37,095 nucleotides of DNA from Pseudomonadota bacterium (lineage in GTDB: Bacteria; Desulfobacterota; Syntrophorhabdia; Syntrophorhabdales; Syntrophorhabdaceae): positions 1-37,095 of the forward strand of contig JAPLKA010000046.1 in the NCBI GenBank assembly GCA_026388315.1, given 5' to 3'. The translations under genes were made by a program, and so were the position numbers. Below, one piece after another: positions 2,914 to 37,095 of this stretch. Positions within the stretch are counted from its first letter, which is position 1. Each line of letters opens with the position of its first letter. Below the pieces are notes generated by a model. It did not search any database, was not told where the DNA came from, and saw only the letters and a list, made by a program, of their open reading frames with translations.

Positions 2914-4425
2914 CTATAACTCTTGCATGCACTTTGTCCTTTTCTGGTCCTCTATGTATGCAACTATTTCTTTTGCCATATTGGAGTACAGCTTTATCCT
3001 GGAATAATCGATGAGTATGTTGTTCATGTACTGAAGTATAAGAGTATCTTCAAAGTGAAGACAAGGTATGATTCCGCTCATCAAGAATCCGAGCTTTTCG
3101 ATCTCTTCACATATATGACTCGTGACCGGATCCCCTAAATTCAAGAAGAGGGTAAAATGGTTGATCTTTTTTGAACATAGGTCCTCAAGGTGGCCTCGAA
3201 GAACTCTTGTTACATCCTTGCCGTATCGATGAATCACGATTTCCGCACTATTTATTTCGGAGGAAACCTTTATCTTCATTATGGAGAGGTCTTCCATCTG
3301 CGCAGTTCCGCGAGATGTCTTGAAATCCTTGCTCAAGCCAAGATTCGAATATATCTTGCGCAGGATAGGTTCATGATGAGAGGGGAGATATATGGAAGTC
3401 ACCGGCAATTCAACAACAGGCTGAAAACAATAAACTAATGTTTCCCGCTGGGAAAGCTGTTCTGCGATCCCCTTGAATGCTATATCTGCCGGAGCATAAC
3501 CGATAACCACAGCGCAGTCCTTATACCCGGTCTTCTCTGTCATTTTCTGTGTAGCGCTATGGATGGTGACCGACCTCCCGTAGACGGCCTTAATCCCCAT
3601 GGTTTTAGCTCTATCGTTAAGAAACTTCTGCATCCTCGTAAAGATGTCCAAACCCCTGAAACTTGGTTTCACTGCCCCCTTTCCTGTTTCAGCGATCATG
3701 TCATCATGTGCTTCCTTGGTTATGGCTAAATGCCCGACAATCTCTCCTTCCTCGGTCACTGCAACAACCGAGTTGATGAGGCCTTCCCGGATGAATTCCG
3801 CAAGCCTCTCCGGATAATACATTACATCTGACAGATATGAATACCCGTATGTTCGATAGAAGAGCCTTGATACTTCCAATGCTTCGGAAGGCTCCATCAG
3901 CCTCAACTCAAATGAGGAGGGTGACGAAGAAACAATCTTCTCACCGGAAAATTTCTGAGGTAGTTTCAGCCCGGGATCTTCGTCGTGTTCCACAACACTC
4001 TTACCGGGAAGACGTTTGATGAGCTGCAATTCCTTCCCCCCCTTCCCGAGATTACAGAAGAACACCTCATCAACACAGTTCTTCATGATAAAAGATCCGA
4101 GGCCTTTAGGGGACACCTCCTGCTGGATATCCACAGGCGCTTCATATTCCGGAAGGAGATTGGGATCGTATGGCAAGCCCTTGTCTTTAACTATGATCTT
4201 AATGCCCCCTGCCAATGGTTCAAAGATAACTTGAAACGATTGTTCTGCGGACTCAAAAGCGTGCTCGATTACATTTGTTACAGCCTCCTCAATGGCGAGC
4301 AGAATCATTTCCTGATCGTTACGACTGAAGCCGATTTCCCTTGAAATTTCCCTTGCAAATGCCTGAATTGCAGGCAAATACGATAGTTCACTGGTAACCG
4401 TAAGACTCGAACTTCCAATTATCAT
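2914..4425 (-). CDS. RsbW-like HATPase fused to a GNAT acetyltransferase domain
   Basis: 503 residues. Residues 1–140 are a GHKL/HATPase_c domain of the anti-sigma serine kinase type: N-box EEAVTNVIEHAF (46–57), DKGLPYD (81–87) and KGLG (107–110). Residues about 172–330 look like a GNAT N-acetyltransferase, with the segment VKPSFRGLDIFTRM as the likely acetyl-CoA loop. The C-terminal 170 residues are unassigned. Such proteins couple a switch-type ATPase to acetyltransfer; partner and substrate are unknown. No anti-sigma antagonist or sigma factor lies beside it. It is large for a cassette gene, but it sits between two CCGCATAAC junctions (2799–2807 and 4526–4534) in the cassette orientation. 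SD GAGGAGAG lies 7 nt before the ATG. Confidence 0.75.
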   Translation of the reverse strand: MIIGSSSLTVTSELSYLPAIQAFAREISREIGFSRNDQEMILLAIEEAVTNVIEHAFESAEQSFQVIFEPLAGGIKIIVKDKGLPYDPNLLPEYEAPVDIQQEVSPKGLGSFIMKNCVDEVFFCNLGKGGKELQLIKRLPGKSVVEHDEDPGLKLPQKFSGEKIVSSSPSSFELRLMEPSEALEVSRLFYRTYGYSYLSDVMYYPERLAEFIREGLINSVVAVTEEGEIVGHLAITKEAHDDMIAETGKGAVKPSFRGLDIFTRMQKFLNDRAKTMGIKAVYGRSVTIHSATQKMTEKTGYKDCAVVIGYAPADIAFKGIAEQLSQRETLVYCFQPVVELPVTSIYLPSHHEPILRKIYSNLGLSKDFKTSRGTAQMEDLSIMKIKVSSEINSAEIVIHRYGKDVTRVLRGHLEDLCSKKINHFTLFLNLGDPVTSHICEEIEKLGFLMSGIIPCLHFEDTLILQYMNNILIDYSRIKLYSNMAKEIVAYIEDQKRTKCMQEL

Positions 4426-4534: not shown

Positions 4535-4665
4535 TAATGACCCGGCAGAAACATTTTACCTCCGATTGGAGATAAGCAATAGACTATGTAAGTGGCGAAT
4601 TCAGCGGTAGCGCCCTCGGTTGCGGATGAATCTTTTAATGTGATTTGAATTGTTATCTTTTTCAT
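4534..4665 (-). CDS. Possible 43-residue cassette peptide, perhaps a truncated gene
   Basis: The reading frame from the ATG at 4665 encodes MKKITIQITL... and stops with TAG exactly at the junction core. A longer frame running into the hairpin element upstream is artefactual, since that part encodes the palindrome. The Shine–Dalgarno is weak (GCGAG). The absence of an attC before the junction suggests a gene cut by deletion, or a decayed cassette. No family is recognised. Confidence 0.3.
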   Translation of the reverse strand: MKKITIQITLKDSSATEGATAEFATYIVYCLSPIGGKMFLPGH

Positions 4666-4671
4666 TTTTCT

Positions 4672-4856
4672 CGCATAATCGGGGCAGTTAAGCCGTGCCC
4701 CGAAGGGGCATCGGTCTTCAACTCCTTGTTCTCCCGAAGCGGAGCGACGGGAAGGAGTTGACGGCTTAACTGCCCCGATTCTCGCGGCGCGAAGCGCCGG
4801 GAGAACGCCATGATGAGCCACGACTGTAAGGAGTTGGCTCCATCAAGTGGTTAGCC
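4672..4856 (-). repeat. attC: attC site split by hairpin element copy 2
   Basis: Left core GCATAA (4673–4678) and right core GTTAGCC (4850–4856). Without the insert 4679–4805 the site reads GCATAAC ... GTTAGCC with arms TGATGAGCCA and TGGCTCCATCA, again with unpaired bases on one arm. The right core lies 26 nt beyond the stop of the DUF2971 gene, as expected for its attC. Confidence 0.78.
4679..4805. mobile_element. Self-complementary hairpin element, copy 2 (127 bp)
   Basis: Differs from copy 3 by a single base and from copy 1 by two paired single-base indels. Inserted precisely at AA|C of the attC left core. Same three GAA-capped hairpins and long stem as the other copies. No gene inside. 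Confidence 0.85.
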
Positions 4857-4881: not shown

Positions 4882-5655
4882 TCATCCCTCATATGGACGA
4901 ATCTCAAGAGAGAATGACCCGGACGCTATCGATGCTTCGAGTACTTCCATGTGGCATTTGCGCTCGGCTGCCCATGCCACAACCGCTGTTTTGTCGTCTG
5001 GCGTCATTCGTGCGCCAAGTATTACGCCCACCAAAAACTCAGCAGGAAAAATCTTGCCGCCAGCCCCATCGTCGTGGTCTATAATTCGGTATTCCTGCTC
5101 ATAATGCCAGTCAATGGCTTTGGTAAGAAGAAATGCGTCAATCTGTTCGCCTGCTGGACTCGTTATGGGGATTTTGGGGTAGTCTGACACGTAGTTGACC
5201 GGCAGGGCGCGTCCAAAGAATGGTGTCTGGTCGGTAGCCATGAACTTTAGACACAGTCCCGTGTGGCCCTCTGCATAGTGGGACCACAGTAAGATATTCC
5301 GGTCGGTGGCGGAGAGGGATAATACGCCAATTCCGTTAACGGCTTTCTGAAAGCCATCCGTCACCTGGCGAAGGAACTTTTCGGGCTCCATGGCACTTAT
5401 GTCTTGTGTGGTTTTTGCCCTACGCTGCTTGCGATTGAGGTTCGGCATACGTCGCTTGAGCCGGTCTAAGTGTTGCTGCCTAAGCTCATCTACTGAGAAA
5501 GAGGGCAGGTAGTGAACTTTGCAGTCGAACGGGTCATTGAATGTTAACGGGTTCGCAAAGTACAAAACCGATTCGGTGAGGATTCTCTTCGTCCATTCCC
5601 GATGTTGCCCATTTAAGTGGCGATATCGATAGAGGAATTGTCTATTCTCGCTCAT
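4882..5655 (-). CDS. DUF2971 family protein, integron cassette
   Basis: 257 residues. DUF2971 hallmarks are visible in order: an N-terminal YRYRHL, the segment FANPLTFNDPFDC (residues about 33–45), the central LSLSATDRNILLWSHYAEGH, then YVSDYP, and KAIDWHYEQEYRII. The biochemical role of the family is not established; members are frequent in mobile and accessory regions. The Shine–Dalgarno is weak (GAGATGAAAC before ATG). It is flanked by the attC at 5669–5724 upstream and the split attC at 4672–4856 downstream, so it is one cassette. Confidence 0.85.
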   Translation of the reverse strand: MSENRQFLYRYRHLNGQHREWTKRILTESVLYFANPLTFNDPFDCKVHYLPSFSVDELRQQHLDRLKRRMPNLNRKQRRAKTTQDISAMEPEKFLRQVTDGFQKAVNGIGVLSLSATDRNILLWSHYAEGHTGLCLKFMATDQTPFFGRALPVNYVSDYPKIPITSPAGEQIDAFLLTKAIDWHYEQEYRIIDHDDGAGGKIFPAEFLVGVILGARMTPDDKTAVVAWAAERKCHMEVLEASIASGSFSLEIRPYEG

Positions 5656-5668
5656 GTTTCATCTCTGC

Positions 5669-5724
5669 GGCTAACGACAGGATCAGCCAGAGCGTTAGCG
5701 ATTGGCTGTATCCATTGGTTATGT
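5669..5724 (-). repeat. attC: attC site (56 bp)
   Basis: Cores GGCTAAC (5669–5675) and GTTATGT (5718–5724). Arms GGATCAGCCA and TGGCTGTATCC pair with extra bases on one side. Its inner sequence is close to that of the attC at 1052–1110, pointing to a common cassette pool. It overlaps the end of the 5726–5956 gene by its core. Confidence 0.85.
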
Positions 5725-5725
5725 T

Positions 5726-5956
5726 TCATTTGGCGATTTTCTTAATGTCCTTGAGTGTTCCAACAAGGGCATCGATCGCCGATCTAAGTTCAAAGGGGTT
5801 GAATCTGGCATGAGGACCGTTATCGTATATTTCTTGTTCTCTCGGGGGCAGGTCTGTGCCCCTCAGTTCGTCAATGACTTTCTCAAAAAGATCTTTCAAT
5901 TTGTTTTCATATCTTTCGAGGGTTTCAACGTCTTTGATTCTCGTAAAATCACTCAT
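5726..5956 (-). CDS. Small helical protein (76 aa), one half of a divergent cassette pair
   Basis: 76 residues, strongly charged and mostly helical by composition (RIKDVETLERYENKLKDLFEK). No known family recognised. AGGAG lies 6 nt before the ATG, on the opposite strand of the ribosome site used by the plus-strand partner at 5968. The stop lies 1 nt from the attC core at 5718–5724, so this is the sense gene of the cassette. A two-gene cassette of small proteins raises the possibility of a toxin–antitoxin or regulator pair, but nothing in the sequences shows it. Confidence 0.6.
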   Translation of the reverse strand: MSDFTRIKDVETLERYENKLKDLFEKVIDELRGTDLPPREQEIYDNGPHARFNPFELRSAIDALVGTLKDIKKIAK

Positions 5957-5967
5957 GGAGGTCTCCT
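5957..5967. promoter_or_regulatory. Shared inverted-repeat Shine–Dalgarno between divergent starts
   Basis: The 11 nt between the two ATGs read GGAGGTCTCCT. The inverted repeat GGAG-GT-CTCC provides GGAGG 6 nt before the plus-strand ATG (5968) and AGGAG 6 nt before the minus-strand ATG (5956). Confidence 0.7.
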
Positions 5968-6159
5968 ATGATATCAAAAGAAGATTTAAAGGTTTATGAA
6001 GAAGCAATTGAAAAACGGGTTCAGAAGTTGAAGGCTGTAATCGCTCTTTACCAGGAAGATGATTTTTCAAAATACCTCGACCTGAAGGAGGCGCTTGCCG
6101 CCGTGGCCATTGCTGCCAACAATGTTGATGAGGTTCTCGAATGGGATCATTCATTGTAG
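5968..6159 (+). CDS. Small helical protein (63 aa) in antisense orientation within a cassette
   Basis: 63 residues, MISKEDLKVYEEAIEKR..., helical and acidic, ending EWDHSL. No family recognised. The ATG is preceded by a full GGAGG at 6-nt spacing, which supports it over the overlapping minus-strand frame. It reads against the direction of the array and ends 7 nt before the attC at 6167–6231. It cannot be expressed from the integron promoter, so it needs its own promoter inside the partner's coding region. Together with 5726–5956 it makes a divergent pair with starts 11 nt apart. Confidence 0.58.
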   Translation: MISKEDLKVYEEAIEKRVQKLKAVIALYQEDDFSKYLDLKEALAAVAIAANNVDEVLEWDHSL

Positions 6160-6166
6160 TTTCTGG

Positions 6167-6231
6167 ACATAACGAAAAGCTCACCCGGAGCAGCCCAGCG
6201 GGCTGCGATCGGGTGGAGCGACGGGTTATGC
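6167..6231 (-). repeat. attC: attC site (65 bp)
   Basis: Cores ACATAAC (6167–6173) and GTTATGC (6225–6231). Very clear two-part stem: CTCACCCG with CGGGTGGAG (one extra base) and GCAGCCC with GGGCTGC. The best-formed attC in the array. Confidence 0.92.
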
Positions 6232-7447: not shown

Positions 7448-7915
7448 TTACATATATTTCTTCATATTTTCGACTAAAAATGAGGTGTAGTGTTTTAAAA
7501 AAGGTAGAATTTCACTTTCTTTGAAACAAGCCAGCACTTTCCCGCCATTTTCATCGTCGATAAATTCAATCCAATCTATTCGATTGTTCACATCCTCAGA
7601 AATCACATTAATACTAAAGTGAGCAACAGAATTACGAAGTCTTTTAATAAGGTCTCGAAGAGTTTTTATATCATCATGAATTACAGTGTCCTGCAAACCA
7701 ATTTTAGTTTTATATTCAGTGATTAATCGCTCATTAGGGATATAGGTAATTGCCTTCTCTTTTGGCATTACTATCAGGCCAAGCATGCAATTTATGACTA
7801 AAGTATGGTTAAATTGTTTTTCAAACGGATACTTTTCCAAATCAGAGCAATATTGCTCAATTAACTCTATCGTCCTTTCGATAAACTCTATTTCAATTTC
7901 AGAATAGTTACCCAT
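7448..7915 (-). CDS. HEPN-domain protein, probably pEK499_p136-type, first gene cassette
   Basis: 155 residues, all-helical by appearance. The HEPN RNase motif R-x4-H is present as RNSVAH (Arg-94 to His-99). The surrounding layout (FIERTIELIEQY at 11–22, TLVINCMLGLIVMPKE at 38–53, TLRDLIKRLRNSVAHF at 85–100, then a D-rich beta segment) matches the HEPN family first seen in plasmid pEK499. HEPN proteins of this kind are often RNA-cleaving toxins or anti-phage effectors, here by inference. The Shine–Dalgarno is GAGG upstream of the ATG at 7915. It is the attI-proximal gene, so it should be the best expressed from the integron promoter and among the latest acquired. Confidence 0.75.
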   Translation of the reverse strand: MGNYSEIEIEFIERTIELIEQYCSDLEKYPFEKQFNHTLVINCMLGLIVMPKEKAITYIPNERLITEYKTKIGLQDTVIHDDIKTLRDLIKRLRNSVAHFSINVISEDVNNRIDWIEFIDDENGGKVLACFKESEILPFLKHYTSFLVENMKKYM

Positions 7916-7939
7916 ATCTCATTCCTCATTGAAGCATAA

Positions 7940-8066
7940 TCGGGGCAGTTAAGCCGTGCCCCGAAGGGGCATCGGTCTTCAACTCCTTGTTCTCCCGAAG
8001 CGGAGCGACGGGAAGGAGTTGACGGCTTAACTACCCCGATTCTCGCGGCGCGAAGCGCCGGGAGAA
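7940..8066. mobile_element. Self-complementary hairpin element, copy 3, at the attI junction
   Basis: 127 bp; one base differs from copy 2 (A for G at 8033), turning one stem pair into a G·T/C·A mismatch. It lies between GCATAA (7934–7939) and C (8067), the same AA|C point as the other copies, but here between attI and the first gene cassette. Removal gives an attI core reading AACTTG|TTATGC on the minus strand. Confidence 0.85.
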
Positions 8067-8226
8067 CAAGTTATTCTATAGTTTCTGTCTATTTCCACAA
8101 ATCAATTATTCTTTCGCGATTCCATCCAATAACAATGCTCCGATGTCCATACAAATCATGGTCTTACCTACTTCTAAGTGACAGTAAGTGACAACTTAAA
8201 TTATTGATATAACAATGTATAATCTC
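8067..8226 (-). other. attI: Probable attI recombination region
   Basis: Position only: between the first junction and the intI promoter, on the side opposite the integrase reading frame, where attI lies in integrons. The junction-proximal sequence on the minus strand is AATAACTTG. A perfect 9-bp direct repeat TAAGTGACA (8175–8183, 8185–8193) could be an accessory integrase-binding repeat. No gene is seen here. Confidence 0.55.
8175..8194 (+). repeat. Tandem 10-bp direct repeat in attI
   Basis: TAAGTGACAG followed at once by TAAGTGACAA. attI1 also has two direct repeats that bind IntI1; equivalence is a guess. Confidence 0.5.
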
Positions 8227-8255
8227 TTGACAAACTTTTTGCAACAATTTATTTT
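8227..8255 (+). promoter_or_regulatory. Promoter of intI
   Basis: −35 TTGACA (8227–8232), 17-nt spacer, −10 TATTTT (8250–8255). The leader to the ATG at 8311 is about 50 nt and contains a CTGTATA/TATACAG inverted repeat. Confidence 0.6.
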
Positions 8256-8277
8256 ATCTTTCTGTATATCATGTCAA
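8251..8277 (-). promoter_or_regulatory. Candidate cassette promoter Pc, facing intI promoter
   Basis: Minus strand −35 TTGACA (8272–8277), 15-nt spacer, −10 TAAAAT (8251–8256). Its −10 overlaps the −10 of the intI promoter, so both cannot be occupied at once. The spacer is short. A second candidate on the same strand has TTGTCA, 16 nt, TATATC further downstream. Confidence 0.4.
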
Positions 8278-8310: not shown

Positions 8311-9759
8311 ATGCTTGCCATCCCGTCTGATTTACATAAAATATTTGAAAAGTATTTACAGAACAGGGAAATCCAAAACAGCTTGCACGGGGTGTACAAA
8401 AAGTGGCTTCAATATTATCTGGACTTTTGCCTGAAATATCATTTCCTTCCCATACATAGAGAAAGTCTGCCGCACTTTATTAATAAGTTGCAGGAAAAGC
8501 AGCAAACGAAGGTTCAACAGGAACAGGCCGTAACGGCAATAACTCTGTATTACGAGATGCTTGGTGCAAAGGGTCTCCCCGACAAAGCACCTATGCCCCA
8601 ACCAGCCAGTTCTCAGAAATGCATGATTTCTAATGACCAACAAGATATTGCTCTCCCTGAGTGGCCGGTTATGTCGAGTCAAAAGGAAAAGAACATTTTT
8701 TCTCCCTCTATTGTTTCATCGCTGGCGTCGTCTGCGGGTAACTCCACGGACATTATTAGTCCGTCGGAGAAGATGAATGTTGAACAAGGAAGCGGGGTTT
8801 CCTGGAAAGCGGAATACTCCCGGTTAGCGGATGAAATTCATATACAGCATTACTCTCCTAAAACTCTGCAGACATATGAAGGATGGGTGAAAAACTTTCA
8901 GACGTTTACGCGCTGCAAGACGCCCGCCTTACTCTCATCAAATGATGTTAAAGAGTTTTTAACATTTCTGGCTGTGAAACGGAAAGTATCAGCCACTACT
9001 CAAAATCAGGCCTTTAATGCACTCTTATACTTTTTTCGTCATTTTCTGCAAAAAGAATTTGGAAAGATTGACGGAGTTGTCAGGGCGAAGAGAAAACCGT
9101 ATATTCCTGTAGTTTTATCCCGTGAAGAAATCAATGCCATCTTGAAGCACCTTGTTCCTCCATATGATCTTGTTGTGAAATTGCTTTACGGGTGCGGACT
9201 TCGGCTGTTTGAATGCCTGGGCCTTCGTATACATTGCATGAATTTTGATGCAGGCATCTTAACGGTTCATGATGGCAAAGGACAAAAAGACCGGACCGTA
9301 CCGCTTCCTGAAATAATTCTTCCGGAACTCCGGGCACATCTTGAATCATTAAAAGAACTTCATCAACAGGACCTGGATCGGGGATATGCCGGTGTGTTTT
9401 TGGTGAATGCATTAGAACAGAAATATAAAAACGCGGCCAGGGAGTTTATCTGGCAGTGGTTTTTCCCGGCCAAACAATTAACCCATGAGGATAATACCGG
9501 AGAATACAGGCGATATCATCTGCATGAAACTCATGTACAAAAGGAGATAAAAGAGGCAGTGAACAAGGCAAGAATTTGTAAGCGTGCGAGCGCCCATACA
9601 TTTCGCCACAGCTTTGCCAGTCATCTTCTCCAGGGGAATTATGATATTCGGACAATCCAGGAGCTGCTGGGACATAGCGATATCAGGACCACCATGATTT
9701 ATACACATACAGTGAAGAGCGTCACGGTTAAAGAGGCCAAAAGCCCGCTTGATTTCTGA
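8311..9759 (+). CDS. intI: Integron integrase IntI with an extra N-terminal domain
   Basis: 482 residues; ordinary IntI proteins are near 320–340. Residues about 165–482 are a complete integron integrase: core-binding domain (HYSPKTLQTYEGWVKNF at 180–196), catalytic Arg-298, Lys-323/326 (KGQKD), His-429/Arg-432 (HTFRH), His-455 (LLGH) and Tyr-464 (MIYTH). The IntI-specific insertion is present at about 377–406 (FIWQWFFPAKQL ... EYRRYHLHE), which separates it from XerC/D. Residues 1–85 look like a second SAM-like core-binding domain (VYKKWLQYYLDF, then QEQAVTAITLYYEML), joined by an 80-residue Ser/Pro-rich linker. It recombines attC with attI, using folded single-stranded attC. SD GGAGG 7 nt before the ATG. 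Oriented away from the cassettes, as in class 1 integrons. Confidence 0.95.
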   Translation: MLAIPSDLHKIFEKYLQNREIQNSLHGVYKKWLQYYLDFCLKYHFLPIHRESLPHFINKLQEKQQTKVQQEQAVTAITLYYEMLGAKGLPDKAPMPQPASSQKCMISNDQQDIALPEWPVMSSQKEKNIFSPSIVSSLASSAGNSTDIISPSEKMNVEQGSGVSWKAEYSRLADEIHIQHYSPKTLQTYEGWVKNFQTFTRCKTPALLSSNDVKEFLTFLAVKRKVSATTQNQAFNALLYFFRHFLQKEFGKIDGVVRAKRKPYIPVVLSREEINAILKHLVPPYDLVVKLLYGCGLRLFECLGLRIHCMNFDAGILTVHDGKGQKDRTVPLPEIILPELRAHLESLKELHQQDLDRGYAGVFLVNALEQKYKNAAREFIWQWFFPAKQLTHEDNTGEYRRYHLHETHVQKEIKEAVNKARICKRASAHTFRHSFASHLLQGNYDIRTIQELLGHSDIRTTMIYTHTVKSVTVKEAKSPLDF

Positions 9760-33565: not shown

Positions 33566-34183
33566 ATGACAATAAAAGAGATCGACCTTATCCCCTCCGA
33601 GCTTCGCGCCATTGAAGTGCACAAGTACTACCTTTCTCAGAGAGAAGGCAGGGAAATTTCTCTTGAAGAGGCAATCGTTGATTTCCTGATCAATTATGAA
33701 TCAGATTTCCTCATGGCAAAACAGATAGAAGACGTGAGAGAACAAAATGCCGAGATCATGAAATATAAATGGATCGAGTCAGAAAAAGAGGGACACGACA
33801 TAGGCACTGAAAAGGCAGCACTGGAATGGGTTGAAAAGTATGGCTCCATATGGAGAGACGAGAAAGAATCTCTTGAGAAAAACGACTTTACCGGGTTAAG
33901 CATCGTTATAGAAAATAAGAGGGGACTCAATATAGAAATTGCTGCATTGGCCGAAATAGCACGAAAGCATGACTGCGAACTATACATCCACAAAGACAGG
34001 ATGAAATATTATAACTTCATTTTATTCGGGAAAAAACAATATTTAAACGTTAAATCAATCCTCTGTCCCAAATACTTGGAAGCTGACAAGGGTGAACCCA
34101 TTGAGTTCATCGCCATCGGAAATGGAGCAAAAGAAGCACTCGGAGAAACGGAATACCTGATACACAATTTAGAGTCCAACTGA
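33566..34183 (+). CDS. Protein with two helical repeats and an HPr-like domain lacking the active His
   Basis: 205 residues. Two copies of a 28-residue helical motif: HKYYLSQREGREISLEEA (19–36) and YKWIESEKEGHDIGTEKA (67–84), each ending in Y-x-S. Residues about 108–203 resemble HPr, the PTS phosphocarrier: ENKRGLNIEIAALAEIA aligns with the P-G-L-H-x-R-P-A block, and VKSILCPKYLEADKGEPIEFIA aligns with the K-S-I-x-G-L...G-D-x-I region. The phospho-accepting His is Asn-122, and the following Arg is Glu, so it cannot be phosphorylated as HPr is. Likely a binding or regulatory relic. Function unknown. Confidence 0.65.
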   Translation: MTIKEIDLIPSELRAIEVHKYYLSQREGREISLEEAIVDFLINYESDFLMAKQIEDVREQNAEIMKYKWIESEKEGHDIGTEKAALEWVEKYGSIWRDEKESLEKNDFTGLSIVIENKRGLNIEIAALAEIARKHDCELYIHKDRMKYYNFILFGKKQYLNVKSILCPKYLEADKGEPIEFIAIGNGAKEALGETEYLIHNLESN

Positions 34184-34238
34184 TATCATGCCATTAACAT
34201 TTTTTTCATCTGAATTTATCACAAGGGGGGATTTTACC

Positions 34239-34559
34239 ATGAAAACGAAGGTTTTTTTAGGGAGTACCTTAATAATCGCATTGCTTTTAATCACAGTTAG
34301 CGTTTTTGCGGAAGGAAAAGAATTAAGAACCGCCACCGGCGAAGTTGTTTTGATCGATGAAAAAGGCAAAGCCATACTGGTCAAAATCGTTGTTGGCAAA
34401 ACAGAATATATTAACGGCGGTATCGTCAATGATGATACAAGGATTACGGCGGGTGGCAAAGATGCCACGATCAATGATATTAAGGTAAAAGACAGGGTTA
34501 CTATGGTTCTCAAAATGGAAAACAATGAGGTCTATGTTAAAAAGATCACAAAAAAATAA
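34239..34559 (+). CDS. Small exported protein
   Basis: 106 residues from the ATG at 34239 (AAGGGGGG 9 nt upstream); the frame is open upstream but the signal peptide fixes the start. MKTKVFLGSTLIIALLLITVSVFAEG is a Sec signal peptide cleaved near Ala-24. The mature part is a single small beta-rich domain (TGEVVLIDEKGKAILVKI ... KDRVTMVLKMENNEVYVKKI) resembling an OB-like or DUF5666-type fold. Overlaps the next gene. Confidence 0.7.
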   Translation: MKTKVFLGSTLIIALLLITVSVFAEGKELRTATGEVVLIDEKGKAILVKIVVGKTEYINGGIVNDDTRITAGGKDATINDIKVKDRVTMVLKMENNEVYVKKITKK

Positions 34560-35013
34560 AAACCGGATCAATCTCCAGGAAAATGAGCAGATAGTATACC
34601 GTACCGGGTTTCATTGGGTAATGCTTCTCGGACCGGCAATGGTTCTAATCATAGCAGGAGTTTCAATCCCTTCCCGGGGGGTAGGCGCTTTGATACTGCT
34701 CATTATCGGGGTTGTCTGGGCAATATTCTCAATTATGAGTTACCGTAACTCCGAATTTTTAATAACAGATGGAAGACTTCTTGCAAGGTTTGGCTTTCCC
34801 TGGAAAAGAATTTACGATATTCCCCTCACAACCATTGAATATATTGACATGCACCAGCCCGCGCTCGGCAACATATTAAACTTCGGGAAGATCCTCATAA
34901 GACGTACCGGAGGATTCGTTCATTCCATTCGCATGATCCCGAATCCGATAGAATTTGTAAAAAAGGTCCAGGAGCAGATTATTTTAAATAGAAATAAAAC
35001 GGAGCCTTTCTGA
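34525..35013 (+). CDS. PH-domain membrane protein (YdbS/bPH2-like)
   Basis: 162 residues. Two hydrophobic segments (WVMLLGPAMVLIIAGVSI at about 31–48 and GALILLIIGVVWAIFSIMSY at about 54–73) precede a bacterial PH domain (about 74–155) with the usual YRNSEFLITDGRLLARFG and DIPLTTIEYIDM blocks. The start lies within the upstream gene (35-nt overlap); an alternative ATG at 34534 is possible. Role unknown; members act at the membrane. Confidence 0.82.
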   Translation: MRSMLKRSQKNKNRINLQENEQIVYRTGFHWVMLLGPAMVLIIAGVSIPSRGVGALILLIIGVVWAIFSIMSYRNSEFLITDGRLLARFGFPWKRIYDIPLTTIEYIDMHQPALGNILNFGKILIRRTGGFVHSIRMIPNPIEFVKKVQEQIILNRNKTEPF

Positions 35014-35040
35014 CACAAACTTCTCGAACTCTTTACACAA

Positions 35041-35937
35041 TTACTCCACAATCCTTGCCTCAAGCACCTTCTCAACACTGAAATCCTCCAGCCCCATATA
35101 ATATGCTGCCGCATCAACCAATGCTTCCATAGGGGTCAGACCAACGATTTCGCTTCCCACCACATTGACACCATACCTCTTTGCCTCTATCCGGATAAGC
35201 TCGACAACCCGGTATAACGGTGTTTTCTTATAATCAGTCATGTTCATGGAAACCTGGGTGATATTCCGCTCTTTTAAGGCAATACCGATAGCTTTGCAAT
35301 ATCTGAGCCCCCCGCTTATATGCCTCACCGCCTTTGCGATAGCATTAGCAATCTCAATATTGTCCGTATCGAGGTTCACGTTAAAGGCAATGAGCGGCAT
35401 CCGTGCACCAATGGCAACCACTCCTGCAGTGTAGTGTATCTGCGCCTCCCCGAAATCAGGCCTCCACACGGGTGATTTAATTTTTTCAGACATCCCCTCA
35501 AACTGCCCCTTGCGGATATTCGCCAAGTTCTCCCTGTCATGGATAATAGCAGAGGCTTCATACAAAAATACCGGCAGTCCATATCTTTCCCACACTGCTC
35601 TTCCAACCTCTTTCGAGAGTCGGATAGCATCCTCCATCGTCACGTTTTTAATGGGGACAAAAGGGATCACATCCACTGCGCCCATCCTGGGATGTTCACC
35701 CCGATGAAATCTCATATCAATGACATCAATGGCAACTCCAACCGCCATGATAACCGCATCCCGCAACAGCTCGGGCTCACCCACAACGGTCACAACCATC
35801 CGGTTATGGTCTGCATCTTTCTCACAGTTCAGTAGTCTTACACCCTTTCTTCCCAGAAAAGGTGCAATGATCTTTTCTATTTTGTCTAAATCCCTTCCTT
35901 CGCTGAAATTCGGTACACATTCCATAATTTTTTTCAT
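35041..35937 (-). CDS. ftcD: Glutamate formimidoyltransferase
   Basis: 298 residues, the single-domain bacterial form (no cyclodeaminase half). Transfers the formimino group from formiminoglutamate to tetrahydrofolate in histidine breakdown. Seen: MECVPNFSEGRD at the N-terminus, DADHNRMVVTVVGEP, FHRGEHPRMGAVDVIPFVP with the catalytic His region, GVVAIGARMPLIAFNVNL, and SMNMTDYKKTPLY. SD AGAGGG 6 nt before the ATG. Alone on its strand; no other hut genes in the window. Confidence 0.95.
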   Translation of the reverse strand: MKKIMECVPNFSEGRDLDKIEKIIAPFLGRKGVRLLNCEKDADHNRMVVTVVGEPELLRDAVIMAVGVAIDVIDMRFHRGEHPRMGAVDVIPFVPIKNVTMEDAIRLSKEVGRAVWERYGLPVFLYEASAIIHDRENLANIRKGQFEGMSEKIKSPVWRPDFGEAQIHYTAGVVAIGARMPLIAFNVNLDTDNIEIANAIAKAVRHISGGLRYCKAIGIALKERNITQVSMNMTDYKKTPLYRVVELIRIEAKRYGVNVVGSEIVGLTPMEALVDAAAYYMGLEDFSVEKVLEARIVE

Positions 35938-36367
35938 AGTATACCCTCTTCAAACTAAAGCTTATGTTGAAGTTCCAAAATATAACAATTTTAACTCTTT
36001 AAAAACATGGAATACAATGATTTTTCTTTTGGTTATCTTGGTTTTTAATCATTTGGATCAATAAACCATCGCCCGGGAAGAACGATGGGAAGTACATTAA
36101 ATTTTTCATGAAGTGTCTCGTTTTCGTTGACATGTTCAGCGAAGAGGGTTACGATATATAGACAAAATAAACACAGGTGTCCAGATCACCAATGGTGGTT
36201 AATATACCTTTTGTTTGAGTGTGAGGTCATGATAGCTATAGTACAACTCGACATATCAGGTAAAATTATATGAAAAGATCTAATTCAAATATATTACAAC
36301 CCCTGAAAAATATGTGTATTTATTTATTATCTCTGAAATCAAAAAAAAAAGCGGGAGGTACCATGCA
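35938..36367. other. Intergenic region before the tandem bactofilins
   Basis: About 430 nt without a credible gene. A candidate plus-strand promoter has TTGACA (36127–36132), 17 nt, TACGAT (36150–36155), which would leave a leader of about 205 nt. AAACCATCG/CGATGG can pair at 36063–36090. Confidence 0.4.
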
Positions 36368-36736
36368 ATGACAGTTAATAATACAGAAGTTAACGAAGAG
36401 AATATTACCACGGTAATTGCTGATGATCTTGAGGTTACCGGTTCAATTAAGTTTAAAAGTTCTCTCATGCTGAAGGGTCTTTTTGATGGGGAAATATTAT
36501 CAGAAGGTCTGTTGATTATAGGGCCTACTGCAAAAGTAAAGGCGACCATCACCACAAAAAACCTGATCTCACATGGAGAAGTAACCGGAGATGTGATAGC
36601 CAGCGAACAGGTTGTTCTGAAAAATACATCCGTTCACAATGGAAATATTACTACACCGGATCTCAACATCGAGAGCGGCGCTGCCTTTAACGGTTCCTGT
36701 TTAATGAAAGTTAAAGATATAAATATAAGTCAGTAG
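36368..36736 (+). CDS. Bactofilin-like protein, first of a tandem pair
   Basis: 122 residues from the ATG at 36368, with GGAGG 8 nt upstream; the open frame extends further upstream without a ribosome site. Bactofilin beta-helix throughout: DDLEVTGSIKFKSSLMLKGLFDGEIL, ISHGEVTGDVIASEQVVL, and NGNITTPDLNIESG. Almost identical in its central part to the gene that follows. No M23 peptidase beside these copies within the window. Confidence 0.88.
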   Translation: MTVNNTEVNEENITTVIADDLEVTGSIKFKSSLMLKGLFDGEILSEGLLIIGPTAKVKATITTKNLISHGEVTGDVIASEQVVLKNTSVHNGNITTPDLNIESGAAFNGSCLMKVKDINISQ

Positions 36737-36768
36737 CATTATCTTTAACAAAAAGGAGGTAACAGGGG

Positions 36769-37095
36769 ATGACAGTTAATGCCATAGAATACGGCGATGA
36801 CAAAATTACCACCGTAATTGCTGAAGATCTTGAGATTACCGGTACAATCAAGTTTAAAAGTTCTCTCATGCTGAAGTGTCTTTTTGATGGGGAAATATTA
36901 TCGGAAGGTCTGTTGATTATAGGGCCTACCGCAAAAGTAAAAGCGACCATCACCACTCAGAATCTCATTTCTCATGGAGAAATAACGGGGGATGTCACGG
37001 CCAGTGAACAGGTCATATTAAAAGACACATCCGTGCATGTAGGCAACATTACCACAAGAAATATTTTAATTGAGAACGGTTCTATTTTTAACGGT
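36769..37095 (+). CDS. Bactofilin-like protein, second of the pair, cut by the window end
   Basis: First 109 residues only. MTVNAIEYGDDKITTVIAED..., clearly a duplicate of the preceding gene. GGAGGT 8 nt before the ATG. Cys replaces Gly in LMLKCLFDGEI. The stop lies outside the window. Confidence 0.87.
   Translation, partial: MTVNAIEYGDDKITTVIAEDLEITGTIKFKSSLMLKCLFDGEILSEGLLIIGPTAKVKATITTQNLISHGEITGDVTASEQVILKDTSVHVGNITTRNILIENGSIFNG

Follow-up and report, generated by a model that had tools for sequence, protein, structure and literature searches.

In the 37,095-nucleotide contig JAPLKA010000046.1 (assembly GCA_026388315.1, from a Pseudomonadota bacterium placed by GTDB in the Syntrophorhabdaceae of the Desulfobacterota), which is referred to here in its entirety as the window, an integron cassette carries two very small genes, designated M and P, whose start codons face away from one another. 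Both are real coding genes, and they appear to be a diverged, relocated version of a gene pair found in phages. That pair is real, conserved and unusual, and had so far been represented by nothing more than two PHROG families whose function is not known, phrog_22692 (phage M) and phrog_22889 (phage P); where the initial annotation, made from the letters of the window alone, thought of something perhaps new, the pair is thus not new to sequence databases. An anonymous integron cassette is now tied to an uncharacterised pair conserved in the early regions of temperate Pseudomonas-type phages. As to what it does, the interpretation put forward here, tentatively and with a little less than an even chance of being right, is that the integron cassette carries a two-gene unit of the kind seen in temperate phages, in which M would be an effector and P its paralogous inhibitor, the two being made mutually exclusive by mRNAs that overlap at their ribosome sites.

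The start junction and its two reading frames

The two start codons were originally described as divergent and 11 nt apart, and this is confirmed by the arrangement CAT-GGAGGTCTCCT-ATG at 5954-5970. The Shine–Dalgarno sequence (SD) of P is GGAGG (5957-5961) on the plus strand, 6 nt from its ATG, while that of M is AGGAG (the complement of 5963-5967) on the minus strand, also 6 nt from its ATG. The two SDs thus consist of different bases and form the two halves of a single near-palindrome. It follows from the geometry that if the mRNAs of M and P each carry their own SD they share a complementary stretch of 11 nt or more spanning both SDs, in agreement with the original proposal that the transcripts could pair at their 5' ends. 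An RNA hairpin at the 11-nt junction was no more stable than those of shuffled sequences.

The layout is unusual. Taking as the criterion two divergent ATG-initiated open reading frames (ORFs), each 50 aa or longer and preceded by an SD of 5 nt or more, with a gap of 25 nt at most between them, the window junction is the sole case in 718 kb of integron-flanking DNA (61 loci from the same phylum), and a reversed-sequence null contained no such pair.

That both frames are coding is clear from their codon usage, scored against that of the long housekeeping genes in the window. The scores per codon are 0.258 for M and 0.262 for P, as against a mean of 0.13 for true genes, placing both within the top 3-5% of the latter (though this is partly an effect of amino-acid composition, both proteins being helices rich in Lys, Glu and Leu). 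None of the wrong-frame segments of equal length reached these values (0/1,715 for M, 0/1,785 for P), nor did any open antisense frame, those opposite M and P themselves scoring -0.05 and -0.23. The possibility of a single true gene facing a chance ORF, which might be entertained given that window P is without a strong sequence match, is scarcely credible, and is already contradicted by the coding-like codon usage of both frames, by the annotation of the pair in RefSeq as two coding sequences (CDS), and by the purifying selection acting on phage homologues of both.

Relatives in temperate phages

Direct protein searches with window M and P found no relatives in their own genome, in 297 genomes of the phylum, or in the plasmid, phage, genome_contigs and viral_contigs collections, and a direct search with M in 46 genomes of the class found none either. 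Comparison of both proteins with Pfam, PHROG, PADLOC and NCBIfam gave chance-level matches only, phrog_22692 itself being absent from the direct hmmscan list for M at E<=5. Membership of the Hha family, suspected for M by eye, was rejected since PF05321 has no match at the locus, and profile matches in other genomes of the phylum were partial, lay inside larger frames and were judged spurious.

The relatives came to light through the junction. Scanning the viral contigs for the pattern CATGGAGNNCTCCTATG gave 65 stretches, of which 44 distinct hits were inspected, and one of these, in IMGVR_UViG_3300017698_000177 (locus L218, also L112), has a junction of comparable type, GGAGCACTCCT, between divergent ORFs of 74 and 67 aa (M' and P'). 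The minus-strand product M' matches residues 6-70 of window M with an E-value of 4.8e-4 in that record, or about 0.02 when corrected for 44 hits; as this match does not depend on the junction by which the locus was found, it constitutes an independent result. M' itself has matches in phrog_22692 (4.6e-7), in a P. aeruginosa phage (6e-4) and on the P. aeruginosa plasmid p3. The viral contigs then yielded first 39 and afterwards 38 M loci, on largely overlapping sets of contigs, together with 45 P loci.

The same junction CATGGAGNNCTCCTATG also occurs in unrelated divergent phage gene pairs (L139/L146, L154, L132, L116 and L111), among which a KTSC-like protein (L139), an RHH-like protein (L154) and a peptidase-like protein were noticed by eye. 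Since these real but unrelated pairs have the same layout, that layout seems to have arisen repeatedly and convergently. The notion that a junction palindrome would by itself mark such pairs was rejected: two ORFs of at least 45 aa were carried by 14/44 distinct SD-pattern hits in the viral contigs and by 5/30 hits of a non-SD control (p 0.115).

Searched for as a unit, as had been recommended at the outset, the pair recurs in about 40 phage loci. It is present head to head in some 45 IMG/VR phage contigs, in the P. aeruginosa phage OQ658368 and in p3, where it is annotated as divergent CDS with overlapping starts. An intact head-to-head M accompanies P in 40/45 of the loci found from P, and in 35/37 assessable loci the two genes start head to head at CATG, with their ATGs overlapping. 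In the phages, then, each SD falls within the first codons of the other gene, and the complementarity of the mRNAs must be longer than 11 nt. Selection on both genes is purifying (median dN/dS 0.162 for M and 0.222 for P, with third-position differences in excess). Neither of the outcomes named at the outset as refuting the pair, homologues of one frame only and a non-coding pattern of substitution, was found. The first ten codons show additional synonymous constraint (p 0.009 for M, 0.0005 for P), as would be expected were each ribosome site encoded within the opening codons of the opposite gene.

The order of genes in the phage early operon is cro-like, CII-like, M (reversed), P, Ogr-like and primase. 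Both immediate neighbours, CII-like and Ogr-like, are on the P strand in 40/43 loci, from which it follows that M is an antisense gene inside an early operon.

Window M clearly belongs to the phrog_22692 family as judged by profile comparison. Its hhalign score against the phage M profile is 28.8 (null 10.3 +/- 2.3, maximum 17.4) and against M' 30.5; with the M-family HMM it ranks first among 11,769 ORFs (hmmsearch, E 0.019); and, like the phage genes, it stands beside a divergent partner, here one of 63 aa at a distance of 11 nt. Window P is probably a member of phrog_22889, mainly on grounds of position, length and charge: at 63 aa, with a pI of 4.6, a helical model and a start divergent from that of M, it resembles phage P, which is always acidic (pI 4.1-4.9). 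The two PHROG families, encoded by adjacent genes in temperate Pseudomonas phages, thus agree with the window pair in their head-to-head arrangement, in their lengths (71-76 and 63-67 aa), in the homology of M and in the length, charge and position of P. They differ in that the window pair has no phage surroundings, being housed in an integron cassette, in that its starts are 11 nt apart rather than overlapping at CATG, and in that window P has drifted so far as to be barely recognisable.

The phage M and P families also look paralogous to one another. Their profiles align with a score of 27.3, compared with 10.1 +/- 2.2 for a column-shuffled null in which 0/100 shuffles reached that value; adding the window members gives a P-value of 5.5e-7; and the two families share a C-terminal helix motif, [DE][IL][RK]xA[IVL]. 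Comparing window M directly with window P gave no significant signal, so that the presumed paralogy of the window pair derives from the phage families. Models made from single sequences show an all-helical hairpin for window M (pLDDT 72) and a helical hairpin for window P (pLDDT 70), for which fold searches gave no confident match; a match to HP0062 (Z 5.7) was set aside as a generic helical hairpin.

Possible functions of the pair

In the mechanism proposed, M would be an effector produced while the early operon is silent, that is during lysogeny, and P, acidic and similar in sequence, would be produced with the early operon and bind M as its inhibitor. Opposed transcription, together with pairing over the ribosome sites, would then make the M and P states mutually exclusive. 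In the cassette, the main (array) direction would yield M, with P as the antisense partner restraining it. This step from layout to function is one that we infer by analogy, because of the resemblance to tha/ith, the opposite charges and the apparent paralogy. The tha/ith system of Staphylococcus aureus phages is a noncontiguous operon whose antisense gene prevents an immune effector and its inhibitor from being made together (PMC11087260). What it shares with the phage family is a phage operon interrupted by a gene on the opposite strand (M, which by gene order stands reversed with CII-like on one side and P/Ogr-like on the other) and, if the proposal is right, an effector and inhibitor in exclusive states. 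However, Tha (a HEPN protein) and Ith are unrelated and belong to other families, whereas M and P look paralogous and share their start region. The overlapping antisense mRNAs of excludons (PMC7154746) are comparable in so far as the 5' parts of the divergent M and P mRNAs are predicted to overlap, but there the overlap is a long 5' or 3' one, whereas the minimum for M and P comprises the two ribosome sites. Bidirectional promoters (PMC12825309) likewise involve head-to-head genes with tiny spacing; a -10 element shared between the starts of M and P, however, would produce RNAs without the SD, and the promoters of the two have to be sited within the opposite gene or on its far side. Also counting for the proposal, anti-phage activity was found for at least 16/179 of the Vibrio cholerae integron cassettes that were assayed (PMC12409362), and the cassettes next to M/P encode Shedu, a PDC-S31 candidate, a HEPN protein and HigBA.

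Several observations weigh against this interpretation, or against the family assignment on which it builds. The match of window P to the P profile is weak (hhalign 13.2, p ~0.02; 15.4 against P', p ~0.01), and the P-family HMM does not recover it among the 11,769 ORFs. Window M has a pI of 5.4, unlike phage M, which is mostly basic (median pI 9.2). M is broken or missing while P is intact in 5/45 P loci, and conversely L247 has a truncated P and L261 has M but no recognisable P; with the partner lost alone in both directions, neither gene can be strictly required for the other. The antisense member relative to the main transcription is not the same in the two settings, being M in phages and P in the cassette. 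Finally, no sigma-70-like promoter above chance was found inside M or P.

An alternative reading, which we consider unlikely, would make M and P subunits of a single heteromeric helical complex, perhaps one that regulates early phage functions or serves them as an adaptor, without antagonism and with the layout serving for equal output or plain compaction. Families that look paralogous and are opposite in charge are what would be expected of an obligate heterodimer, and the close company of CII-like and Ogr-like regulators would suit such a role; but equal output is normally achieved by a co-directional operon, the position of M antisense to the operon that produces P in phages works against co-expression, and a single partner can be lost.

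The initial annotation had itself envisaged a two-component regulator or a toxin-antitoxin system, and no match to M or to P was found among families of toxins, antitoxins, regulators or defence proteins. An addiction-type toxin-antitoxin cassette stabilising the array is accordingly improbable, for all that the pair is small, has an acidic partner and fills a self-contained cassette, that toxin-antitoxin cassettes with their own promoters are frequent in chromosomal integrons (PMC11023631), and that a HigBA pair is present in the same array. Apart from the lack of toxin or antitoxin families in Pfam, NCBIfam and PADLOC, the gene order is divergent rather than the co-directional operon of type II systems, an internal promoter is not recognisable, and phage locus L261 keeps an intact M beside no recognisable P. 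The known cassettes of this kind, for example those of Vibrio cholerae (PMC11023631), resemble M/P in being self-contained two-gene cassettes and differ from it in these same respects of orientation and domain content.

More improbable still is a phage defence or counter-defence module, in which P and M would be paralogous versions of a helical hairpin binding an immune signal or protein in the manner of Acb2 or Tad1. It is the case that 3/47 weak BFVD matches of the M model are Acb2/Tad1 hairpin proteins, that the relatives are in temperate Pseudomonas phages and that defence genes occupy adjoining cassettes. However, the Foldseek probabilities are just 0.1-0.2 for a single-sequence model of pLDDT 72, 0/19 family members match that domain in Pfam, and helical hairpins are common.

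To return to the effector and inhibitor, a wider claim would be that a paralogous pair of this sort, whose ribosome sites are complementary to each other's mRNA, forms a self-contained two-state switch moving between phages and integron cassettes; we would put this no higher than somewhat unlikely. If true, it would be a compact natural design, two related proteins being made exclusive through pairing of their translation starts. Two questions become testable as a result: whether a minimal mobile switch can be built from antisense pairing across ribosome sites, and whether integrons act as stores of phage-derived effector/inhibitor units.

The cassette and its array

The location of the pair inside a cassette, as originally claimed, is borne out by an integrase gene nearby and by an attC site with the diagnostic single extrahelical base on either side (Table 1). 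M, P and the junction together occupy 87% of the cassette. In the attC of this cassette L'' and L' are perfectly complementary except for one extrahelical A. The array runs leftward from the integrase on the minus strand, M lying with it and P against it.

Table 1 Features of the M/P locus and its surroundings (positions in the window).
Feature	Position	Strand	Remarks
M gene	5726..5956	-	76 aa (76 codons); in array direction; codon score, phage M homology, helical model
P gene	5968..6159	+	63 aa (63 codons); against array; codon score; position, length and charge of phage P; weak profile match; helical model
Junction GGAGGTCTCCT	5957..5967		11 nt; SD of P (+) and SD of M (-) as two halves of a near-palindrome
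Integron cassette 4	5675..6172	-	498 bp from one G^TT exchange point to the other; R' cores: GTTATGT (6173..6167), GTTAGCC (5675..5669), minus strand
attC of M/P cassette	5669..5724	-	R'' ACATAAC, L'' GGATaCAGCCA, L' TGGCTGATCC, R' GTTAGCC
attC of preceding cassette (upstream border of M/P cassette)	6167..6231	-	L''/L' with one extrahelical C; DNA fold z -3.9
Integron integrase	8311..9759	+	482 aa; TIGR02249, 9.1e-115
Candidate array promoter Pc	8251..8277	-	TTGACA, 15 nt, TAAAAT; score 10.9, shuffle p 0.035; consensus match only

The further claim that both promoters must lie within the opposite gene stands strictly for P, which needs an internal promoter, but not for M, which could be reached by read-through along the array; neither promoter is recognisable. 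Transcription from the candidate Pc could, to judge from its position and consensus, read through to M, antisense to P. M may therefore be transcribed from the array, while P would need an unrecognised promoter.

Some other features of the window may be recorded briefly. The integrase is extended at its N terminus by about 160 aa, and many long integrase frames (>400 aa) are found in related genomes; integrase matches above the curated cut-off occur in 108/297 genomes of the phylum. A strongly palindromic direct repeat of about 150 nt, with copies 74-94% identical, is present at 1935-2087, 4654-4806 and 7915-8067, in each case at the 5' start of a cassette directly behind the R' core, which reads GTTCTCC in two of the three; a mini-cassette devoid of ORFs, a long attC and a promoter/terminator module are among the things it may represent. 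Defence-like cassettes are abundant in the array (152-1033, 2142-2777, 4882-5655 and 7448-7915), the neighbours including Shedu SduA (1.1e-92), a HigBA-like pair, a DUF2971/PDC-S31 candidate (4.6e-54) and the HEPN protein pEK499_p136 (1e-34). A 503-aa gene at 2914-4425 in the array region, by eye resembling a fusion of an ATPase (HATPase) with an acetyltransferase, is larger than would be expected in a typical cassette. At 33566-37095 there are bactofilin-like genes nearly in tandem, with a 300-nt repeat whose copies are 82% identical and 401 nt apart.
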